Assembly: GCA_023245195.1 (NCBI GenBank)
Contig: JAHFKU010000009.1
Span: 1-34,021 of the forward strand
From: Candidatus Staskawiczbacteria bacterium
GTDB taxonomy: Bacteria; Patescibacteriota; Minisyncoccia; Minisyncoccales; Staskawiczbacteraceae
Direction of reading: 5' to 3'
Length of the DNA: 34,021 bases
A program made the translations under genes and the position numbers. Below the pieces are notes generated by a model that was not told the DNA's origin, ran no database searches, and saw only the letters and a program-made list of their open reading frames with translations. This document shows, one piece after another, positions 3,204 to 6,899 of the stretch. Within the stretch, counting starts at the first letter, position 1. Every line of letters begins with the position of its first letter.

Positions 3204-3230
3204 GGCTTGTCTAAAAAACAAGCCTTTTTT
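3204..3230 (+). terminator. Terminator of the single-pass membrane protein gene
   Basis: A 7-bp stem (3204-3210 with 3218-3224) is followed by six T's, 8 bases after the stop codon at 3195. Confidence 0.85.
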
Positions 3231-3231
3231 C

Positions 3232-3429
3232 TTGTCGGGGTGCCGAGAATAGAAGCTCGTCGCTTCGCTCCTTCAAACCCCTCGGTTTGAATATGCGAAG
3301 CATATTTTCGGCACTCGTTCAGAAGAAAATAAAATGATTTTTCTTTTCTTCCTCTCTCGTTTGAAAATAATTCCGCCACGGGAAAAATACTTTTTCCCGA
3401 CCCCTTTTGCCGAGTTCGAATCTCGGCAC
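3232..3429 (-). repeat. tRNA-T-arm-bounded repeat element, copy 1 (3' of tRNA-Pro)
   Basis: Read on the minus strand, this follows the tRNA-Pro terminator. It opens with an antisense copy of that tRNA's T-arm (3429-3409, 19 of 20 bases). It closes with a sense copy of the tRNA 3' end (3250-3232), giving a 19-bp direct repeat with 3466-3448 inside the tRNA gene. Between them lie hairpin 1 (3380-3387 with 3391-3398) and hairpin 2 (3272-3279 with 3284-3291). A G+C-rich GGAGCGAAGCGACGA stretch is also present. The same parts occur in the same order at 33869-34004. Compared with that copy, this one has about 60 extra bases between the hairpins. There is no convincing coding potential. Confidence 0.8.
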
Positions 3430-3432
3430 GCA

Positions 3433-3449
3433 AAAAACTGATAGTTTTT
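3433..3449 (-). terminator. Terminator of tRNA-Pro(GGG)
   Basis: A 7-bp stem (AAAAACT / AGTTTTT, loop of 3) begins 3 bases after the tRNA and ends in a T-run on the minus strand. It would stop most transcripts before the repeat element beyond it. Confidence 0.7.
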
Positions 3450-3451
3450 GT

Positions 3452-3520
3452 CGGGGTGCCGAGAATCGAACTCGGGCTACACGACCCCCAGCCGTGCGTA
3501 CTACCTCTATACGACACCCC
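3452..3520 (-). tRNA. tRNA-Pro(GGG)
   Basis: The cloverleaf folds cleanly. The acceptor is GGGGTGT with GCACCCC, the anticodon stem is CACGG/TCGTG with loop CTGGGGG (anticodon GGG), and the T-arm is CCGAG-TTCGATT-CTCGG. The CCA end is not encoded. The gene lies 60 bases downstream of cca, and its T-arm is copied in both orientations in the element that follows it. Confidence 0.9.
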
Positions 3521-3526
3521 GTCTTC

Positions 3527-6298: not shown

Positions 6299-6304
6299 AT
6301 ATTT

Positions 6305-6392
6305 GCTACGAAATACGAATATTTGCGAATATACGAATCACCACCACGACGTTTCTTATTCGTATATTGGTATGTAATTCGTATTTCGTAGC
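6305..6392. repeat. Leader palindrome, CTACGAAATACGAAT family, copy 1 (NYN gene)
   Basis: Arms 6305-6338 and 6358-6392 pair closely, with the outer 16 bases exact. The arm ends six bases before the NYN gene's ATG. A homologous hairpin precedes the ABC permease (30776-30863), and one arm precedes htrA (33503-33535). Confidence 0.9.
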
Positions 6393-6398
6393 CTAGTT

Positions 6399-6899
6399 AT
6401 GCAAAAGCCTAAAGAACAACGAGTTGAAGTATTGATAGATGTGCAAAACCTCTATTATTCGGCGCGGAATTTGTATCATCAAAAAGTGAATTTCGCGGAA
6501 GTGCTCAAAGAAGGCGTGGCTGGCCGGAAATTTATCAGGGCATTTGCCTATGTGGTGCGCACAAAAACTGGCGAAGAAAAGCCATTTTTTGATGCACTGA
6601 CTAAATTGGGTATTGAAACTCGAGTGCGTGACTTGCAAGAATTTTACGGCGGCGCCAAAAAAGCTGATTGGGATGTGGGAATTGTGATCGACGCCATCCG
6701 TACGGCTGCTAGCTTAGATGTGATTGTGCTGTGTTCGGGCGATGGAGATTTTATTCCCCTAGTTGAATATTTAAAAAACCAGGGCAAGCGCGTAGAAGTT
6801 GCTGCCTTTGGCAAAACCACCTCTGCAAGACTTATTGAAGCGGCTGACGAATTCATAGATTTGGATTTAGAACAAAATAAGTTTTTGTTAAAGAAATAA
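6399..6899 (+). CDS. NYN-domain (LabA/DUF88-like) predicted ribonuclease
   Basis: This 166-residue protein is a PIN-like NYN domain over nearly its whole length. It has VLIDVQNLYYSA (D14, N17) at the first metal site, DWDVGIVIDAI (D92), and LCSGDGDFIPLV (D115, D117), followed by GKRVEVAAFGKTTSARLIEAADEFIDL. The acidic residues expected for metal-dependent RNA cleavage are all present. NYN proteins are thought to process or degrade RNA; the target here is unknown. It lies between rpsO and pnp, an RNA-metabolism neighbourhood. Its start codon directly follows a long palindrome and no Shine-Dalgarno is visible. The next gene begins immediately after its stop. Confidence 0.85.
   Translation: MQKPKEQRVEVLIDVQNLYYSARNLYHQKVNFAEVLKEGVAGRKFIRAFAYVVRTKTGEEKPFFDALTKLGIETRVRDLQEFYGGAKKADWDVGIVIDAIRTAASLDVIVLCSGDGDFIPLVEYLKNQGKRVEVAAFGKTTSARLIEAADEFIDLDLEQNKFLLKK

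Follow-up and report, generated by a model that had tools for sequence, protein, structure and literature searches.

What places a short, gene-free repeat directly behind a tRNA gene, with part of that tRNA copied in antisense at one end and in sense at the other? The question is raised by contig JAHFKU010000009.1 of a Candidatus Staskawiczbacteria bacterium (Patescibacteriota; GenBank assembly GCA_023245195.1), of which positions 1 to 34,021 were analyzed; this whole stretch of 34,021 nucleotides (nt) is called the window. Behind tRNA-Pro(GGG), on the minus strand, an earlier reading of the letters (the original prediction) had described an antisense copy of the tRNA T-arm, two hairpins, and a 19-base sense repeat of the tRNA 3′ end, together with a second such element behind another tRNA, and all of these parts were recovered where it had placed them. 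Both elements belong to a family of dispersed, non-coding, protein-free inserts of ~100–250 bases, which in tiny-genome Patescibacteria follow tRNA and housekeeping genes directly at their 3′ ends. We consider it roughly an even bet (probability ~0.5) that these are small non-coding mobile elements inserted in trans at sites picked by pairing of their antisense arm with the target's sense strand, a mechanism that we infer from their structure and distribution.

Anatomy of the two elements in the window

Read in the direction of the host gene, a unit consists of the 3′ end of the gene (T′), a loop, an antisense arm, 2–5 nt, the core, and a second, sense copy of the gene end (T). The loop is formed by the stop codon in protein genes and by a terminator behind tRNAs. 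The parts of copy 1, which follows tRNA-Pro(GGG), are listed below; R1 denotes a covariance model of the core.

3450..3521, minus strand: tRNA-Pro(GGG), host gene of copy 1 (ARAGORN; Rfam RF00005, 54.5 bits); its 3′ part is the left target copy T′
3430..3448, minus strand: loop separating T′ from the arm, with a short terminator-like hairpin, AAAAACTATCAGTTTTTT (sequence, fold)
3409..3429, minus strand: antisense (guide-like) arm, T′rc, GTGCCGAGATTCGAACTCGGC, which complements the tRNA-Pro T-arm with one central mismatch
3264..3408, minus strand: core of copy 1 (R1 match 3264–3409, 55 bits, E 8.6e-12)
3290..3376, minus strand: unrelated repeat nested in the core (BLAST, query 925–1011, matches in other genomes)
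3251..3266, minus strand: right end of the core, GAGCGAAGCGACGAGC, with the family-conserved GAGCGA...GCGAC end
3229..3254, minus strand: right target copy T, the tRNA 3′ end with its T-loop changed from TTCGA to TTCTA (direct repeat)

Within this core, the order is GGGGTCGGGA hairpin 1, a GGAA stretch, the nested unrelated insert, AAACCGAGGGGTTT hairpin 2, and GGAGCGA, such that two hairpins lie between the arm and the right copy T. The sense tRNA 3′ end at 3250–3232 is identical over 19 bases to 3466–3448, and the repeat search extends this direct repeat to 26 bp at 92% (3229–3254 / 3445–3470). The region folds 3.7 standard deviations better than its dinucleotide shuffles. No open reading frame (ORF) lies inside copy 1, and the original prediction was right that the element contains neither an integrase nor any other gene and fits no named family.

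Copy 2 sits at the opposite end of the window (33738–34004), on the plus strand behind tRNA-Arg(CCT):

33738..33810, plus strand: tRNA-Arg(CCT), host gene of copy 2 (ARAGORN, Rfam)
33811..33869, plus strand: loop with a terminator-like hairpin, TTGAAACA...TGTTTCAA (sequence)
33870..33883, plus strand: antisense arm, T′rc, AGGAATCGAACCTG (sequence)
33885..33986, plus strand: core and right end, GAGCGGAGCGACGACGGGTTCTAGCGAAGCG (R1 match 33885–33959, 77.8 bits, E 7.1e-18)
33987..34004, plus strand: right target copy T, GATTCCTACCGAGGGCAC, which starts in the T-loop (repeat search, sequence)

Copy 1 appeared longer than copy 2 because an unrelated repeat of ~85 bp interrupts it. Stretches similar to this nested repeat (GAGAGAGGAAGAAAAG...GAACGAGTGCCGAAAATATGCTTCGCATATTC, ~3290–3376, minus strand) occur in several genomes of the genus.

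A family with a conserved, covarying core

The window has two occurrences of the core pattern, GGGGTCGGGA-hairpin-TCCCGTG, where 0.01 would be expected, and the window's genome has four, where the reversed-pattern control gives 0; the motif is also present in 17 of 98 relatives, and the reversed control in none. With model R1, no fewer than 15 copies are detected in the window's genome, and 99 of 290 relatives also have matches. Such a search had been proposed as a check, and its outcome establishes a real element family. Across the family, the core runs AGGAGGGGTCGGGA-hairpin 1-TCCCGTG, GGAAA, an optional hairpin, AAACCGAGGGTTT hairpin 2, GGAGCGA, a variable hairpin, and GCGAC. The copies share two covarying hairpins and the invariant GGGGTCGGGA...TCCCGTG; among 113 distinct copies, the 18 pairs hold in 97% of cells, and the covariation score is 0.43, compared with 0.17 for shuffled and at most 0.16 for slid controls. 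One copy (L086) lacks the right half of the core, and the ORF that follows it is ordinary and acetyltransferase-like.

At least 115 loci were found in a collection of one genome per species, in which truly fresh insertions are scarce. Among the matches listed, almost all are from Patescibacteria (Staskawicz-, Kaiser-, Yonath-, Ryan-, Colwell-, and Wolfebacteria, and others), and the few from elsewhere are probably accidental. In the window, only tRNAs reached the gathering score of Rfam 15, and one element gave nothing at E ≤ 1. We found no published description of the family in the searchable literature, outside of which lay most subscription journals and all preprints, and we know of no named element family with this structure. 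On these three grounds, the family is apparently undescribed.

The antisense arm matches the gene end beside it

Arms and gene ends were compared by local alignment in the 185 copies for which both flanks were present. The arm matched its own upstream gene end at a score of ≥28 in 43% of copies, compared with 0.5% of mismatched pairs, and a direct repeat between the upstream and downstream sides reached a score of ≥32 in 48%, compared with 0.6%. The ends of the element do, therefore, match the local gene, as it had been suggested they might, and the possibility that such copies are chance degenerate duplications of tRNAs can be set aside, given that both kinds of match are far above the mismatched pairs. 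The position of the match is equally regular: in 104 of 120 stems it stops 2–5 nt short of the core boundary. Mismatches between arm and target are rare at positions 0–6 and increase outward; the match is near-perfect over the first 6–9 nt. Duplication of the whole hairpin, arm included, was discarded as a general rule, as it holds in a minority of copies only.

The mismatches that do occur are unevenly distributed between the strands, despite a balanced base composition. Between the arm and T′, there are 45 G.T and T.G mismatches vs 14 A.C and C.A, and 48 G.A and A.G vs eight C.T and T.C. The same two ratios are far less asymmetric between the arm and the right copy T (20:16 and 23:11, respectively). 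The asymmetry against T′ argues that it is the sense strand on which the arm pairs with the left copy, or on which such pairing is selected.

Targets and insertion points

The tRNA T-arm is the target in about 51 of the 120 matched copies, and most of the remaining targets are 3′ ends of protein genes. From recognized C-termini, we take these genes to include rpsI, rpsG, fusA, gapA, pgk, murC, uvrA, a uvrC-like gene, ctpA, and rpmB. The expectation that hits would lie 3′ of tRNA genes was thus borne out for many copies, but the element is not tRNA-specific, since many others sit at the 3′ ends of ribosomal-protein genes, gapA, pgk, fusA, murC, uvrA, and other genes.

Among the tRNA copies, 43 have a second sense copy that starts at, or within 2–3 nt of, a single point in the T-loop, between GGTTC and GATTCC, regardless of what is on the left side. 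Insertions can also be stacked in tandem: behind one tRNA (L168) there are two full units and a truncated third, and at another locus (L104) two units are accompanied by three rpsI C-termini. In the right-hand tRNA copy, the T-loop is nearly always altered, either from TTCGA to TTCTA or by an inserted TAGCGAAGCG hairpin (e.g., L090, L013, and window copy 2), a change that may keep this copy from serving as a tRNA end or being targeted anew. The 5–9 nt of T beside the core may be borne by the element in protein targets as well, for which the per-position counts are suggestive only.

Empty sites and the origin of the arm

The original prediction had suggested looking for empty sites in close relatives, and these were found at one orthologous locus in the window's genus, where the site is empty in five genomes and filled in four, while a further one (G010) has T′ and the arm without the core. 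In two of the filled genomes, T′ and T agree base for base over ~35 bp (G005) and ~44 bp (G007), with a short microhomology at the left junction, as judged by reading. Left junctions often have such microhomologies, of 2–8 nt. In G010 (L357; contig C16, ~44,070), T′ is followed by a 22-bp antisense arm, and the missing core may reflect either a pre-insertion hairpin or precise loss of the core.

Differences between T′ and T fall at 14%, 10.5%, and 32% of sites at codon positions 1, 2, and 3, respectively, and the downstream copy T was therefore coding until recently. In many copies, T′ and T are thus diverged orthologous gene ends, with T′ being either orthologous or duplicated. Where T′ and T are ≥95% alike, as in recent-looking insertions, the repeat is 25–89 bp long, and in 15 of 18 such copies the arm differs from both T′ and T within its first 14 nt. 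The arm, therefore, most likely arrived with the element. Target choice would then most likely lie with an arm that moves as part of the element, and the proposal that an element acquires its ends by copying those of the tRNA it has entered does not fit the same 15 copies.

A proposed route of insertion

With its antisense arm, the element appears to carry its own address tag for guided insertion. We infer that the arm acts as the guide, as part of an RNA or single-stranded DNA molecule, with any enzyme involved acting from elsewhere. A single-stranded copy of the element would recognize its target through pairing of the arm with the sense strand, starting with a seed, the 6–9 nt of the arm nearest to the core. 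The right end of the element would then be joined to the target within the paired stretch, which in tRNAs would be the one T-loop point, and copying back through the tail of the target would duplicate the gene end, from the join to beyond the end of the gene. The left copy would keep the gene intact, and the second copy would come to lie behind the core. We propose that the bias toward 3′ ends of genes arises because an insertion survives only if the left copy is complete.

A more specific version, on which we would put slightly less than even odds, is that the elements form a new, protein-free class, in which the arm programs the site by seed pairing and the sense target copy serves as a second, strand-joining arm of a guide-plus-template molecule, which would insert itself behind essential genes of Patescibacteria.

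If the arm is an address, this would be guided insertion directed by nature to the 3′ ends of tRNA genes and of essential genes, which are still functional afterwards; its enzyme would lie outside the guided families tested here, and its hosts would be bacteria with few known mobile elements. Even on a weaker reading, one of the largest radiations of bacteria has in these inserts a non-coding repeat family that is widespread and undescribed, and that offers dozens of natural guide/target pairs.

Observations that weigh against guided insertion

Several observations speak against arm-guided insertion, the first group of which concerns the arm. About one-fifth of the copies have no clear arm match. 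In a subtype with GGAGAGGGG left ends (L159, L160, L161, L162, L165, L069, and L070), which lies directly upstream of start codons, that of rplN among them, T resembles TAACTCTCTAGTACCATTATG and the arm match is weak. Gene conversion between T′ and T could likewise yield identical T′ and T beside an aged arm. The core-less T′-arm hairpin of G010 is not directly predicted if a guided arm and core insert together. Lastly, G.A mismatches are as common as G.T, and single-stranded DNA fits at least as well as RNA.

The second group comes from the search for a partner enzyme in 41 genomes, 22 element-rich and 19 element-free, the latter defined by no model match at E ≤ 1e-4 under strict filters, so that a few may hold degenerate copies. 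Reverse transcriptase (RVT_1) was found in 5/22 element-rich vs 16/19 element-free genomes, and Y1 transposase in 15/22 vs 12/19, that is, not consistently present and absent from G052, G055, G097, G135, G149, G245, and G258, which have 7–15 copies each. TnpB and IS110 (DEDD transposase) were each found in one of the 41 genomes, and the IscB marker RRXRR in none, without any positive-control match. Reverse transcriptase was consequently rejected as the partner, being anti-associated with the elements, and so were Y1 transposase, TnpB, IS110, IscB, and tyrosine integrase. That RVT_1 is frequent in element-free and rare in element-rich genomes possibly reflects phylogeny. No recurrent mobile gene adjoins the 207 copies inspected; an autonomous version with a gene inside, or a recurrent neighbor gene, was likewise sought among them, and only ordinary conserved or housekeeping genes were seen as neighbors, with no ORF inside.

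Alternative explanations

The alternative that survives best, which we nevertheless consider unlikely, is a non-autonomous palindromic repeat of the REP/MITE (repetitive extragenic palindrome/miniature inverted-repeat transposable element) kind, for which natural transformation, followed by homologous recombination at orthologous gene ends, would be the means of passive spread, with the arm being simply part of a hairpin. This would agree with the lack of a co-occurring dedicated enzyme and with the G010 hairpin that has no core, and recombination with the gene end of a foreign genome would account for the frequent finding that T′ is an orthologue of T that has diverged. Passive spread leaves unexplained, however, why dozens of targets are matched by arms at a fixed distance from the core and why the junction in 43 tRNAs is at a fixed place in the T-loop.

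We give distinctly less credence to snap-back copying, in which the target's own 3′ end would be copied at insertion by template switching and the arm would be a by-product rather than an address. Arms do mirror local genes, partly including species-specific third-codon bases, and microhomologies of 2–8 nt are frequent at left junctions, both of which speak for it. What it does not account for is that the arm is no exact complement of either copy in 15 of the 18 near-identical T′/T pairs.

Marginally more doubtful is an integrative element with attL/attR sites at gene 3′ ends, mobilized by a tyrosine recombinase supplied in trans from a virus or plasmid. Restored gene 3′ ends, direct repeats, the T-loop sublocation in tRNAs, and tandem insertions are all in its favor, and the comparison with attL/attR-type integration made in the original prediction holds to the extent that the gene end is restored between direct repeats. 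It fails in that there is no integrase and no recombinase site common to the targets. Tyrosine recombinases are present in 40 of the 41 genomes, mostly as one Xer-like gene in element-rich and element-free genomes alike, with no excess in the former, and one element-rich genome has none. The two-hairpin pattern gave no match in 2.9 million viral contigs (IMG/VR), and the antisense arm is left unexplained. A viral origin was rejected, as the 36 IMG/VR matches of a first pattern mostly lack a complementary hairpin and look like chance.

Least probable of all is an RNA element selected by the host, in which the T′-arm hairpin and core act at the 3′ end of an mRNA or precursor tRNA (in stability, termination, or processing), for while the constant sense orientation at gene ends, the wobble-type mismatches in T′-arm stems, and the subtype just upstream of start codons could be so explained, a terminator usually separates T′ from the arm in tRNA copies, and mobility is suggested by the scattered presence (99/290 genomes), by the tandem copies, and by orthologous sites that are empty.

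Other repeats in the window

A second palindromic repeat family, TACGAATATACGAAT..., of ~100–135 bp, is found in the window at 6301–6401, 30772–30872, and 33500–33535. A repeat adjoining L141 is related to it and has many copies in the window's genome and in G010, and few in other congeners.

Comparison with known systems

The family fails at least one tested defining feature each of integrase islands, REP/MITE repeats, and retroelements that depend on a reverse transcriptase. It is like REP/BIME (bacterial interspersed mosaic element) and MITE repeats, including those of RAYT/Y1 systems, in being short, non-coding, and hairpin-forming, with many dispersed copies at gene ends. Unlike them, it has a target-complementary arm and duplicates 25–90 bp of the target. 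In contrast to REP/RAYT systems, Y1 transposase is missing in seven high-copy genomes, and in contrast to MITEs of DNA transposons, the duplications are variable (25–89 bp) and the inverted ends differ with each target. Tyrosine-integrase islands share with it the restored gene 3′ end, the direct repeats, and the same classes of target gene, but the family has no integrase and no cargo, and has the antisense arm. Whereas such an integrase would use one att site, a single core family is found here at tRNA, rpsI, pgk, fusA, gapA, and other unrelated sites.

Nucleic-acid-guided recognition of DNA would be shared with the bridge or seek RNAs of IS110/IS1111, the omega RNAs of TnpB/IscB, and TIGR-Tas. 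The marker proteins of the IS110 and TnpB/IscB systems are absent, or nearly so, from the 41 genomes. TIGR-Tas has been reported from Patescibacteria, where its guides pair with both strands, and is defined by an array of edge and loop repeats, two 9-nt spacers, and a Nop-domain protein (PMC12045711). In contrast, the copies that were read have no array or dual 9-nt spacers between repeats, and no search was aimed at the Tas protein. The family also differs from all of these RNA-guided systems in that its arm overlaps the same target stretch as its sense copy.

Reverse transcriptase, on which group II introns, retrons, and diversity-generating retroelements depend, is neither linked to the elements nor co-occurs with them, and the core is far smaller than any intron. 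The family is nonetheless like prime-editing guides and target-primed retroelements (group II introns, R2-type) in having a guide, a structured scaffold, and a sequence complementary to the nicked strand, and in its variable target duplication and one-sided microhomology. By analogy, its order of guide, scaffold, and target copy is that of a prime-editing guide RNA occurring in nature, and would suit target-primed copying.
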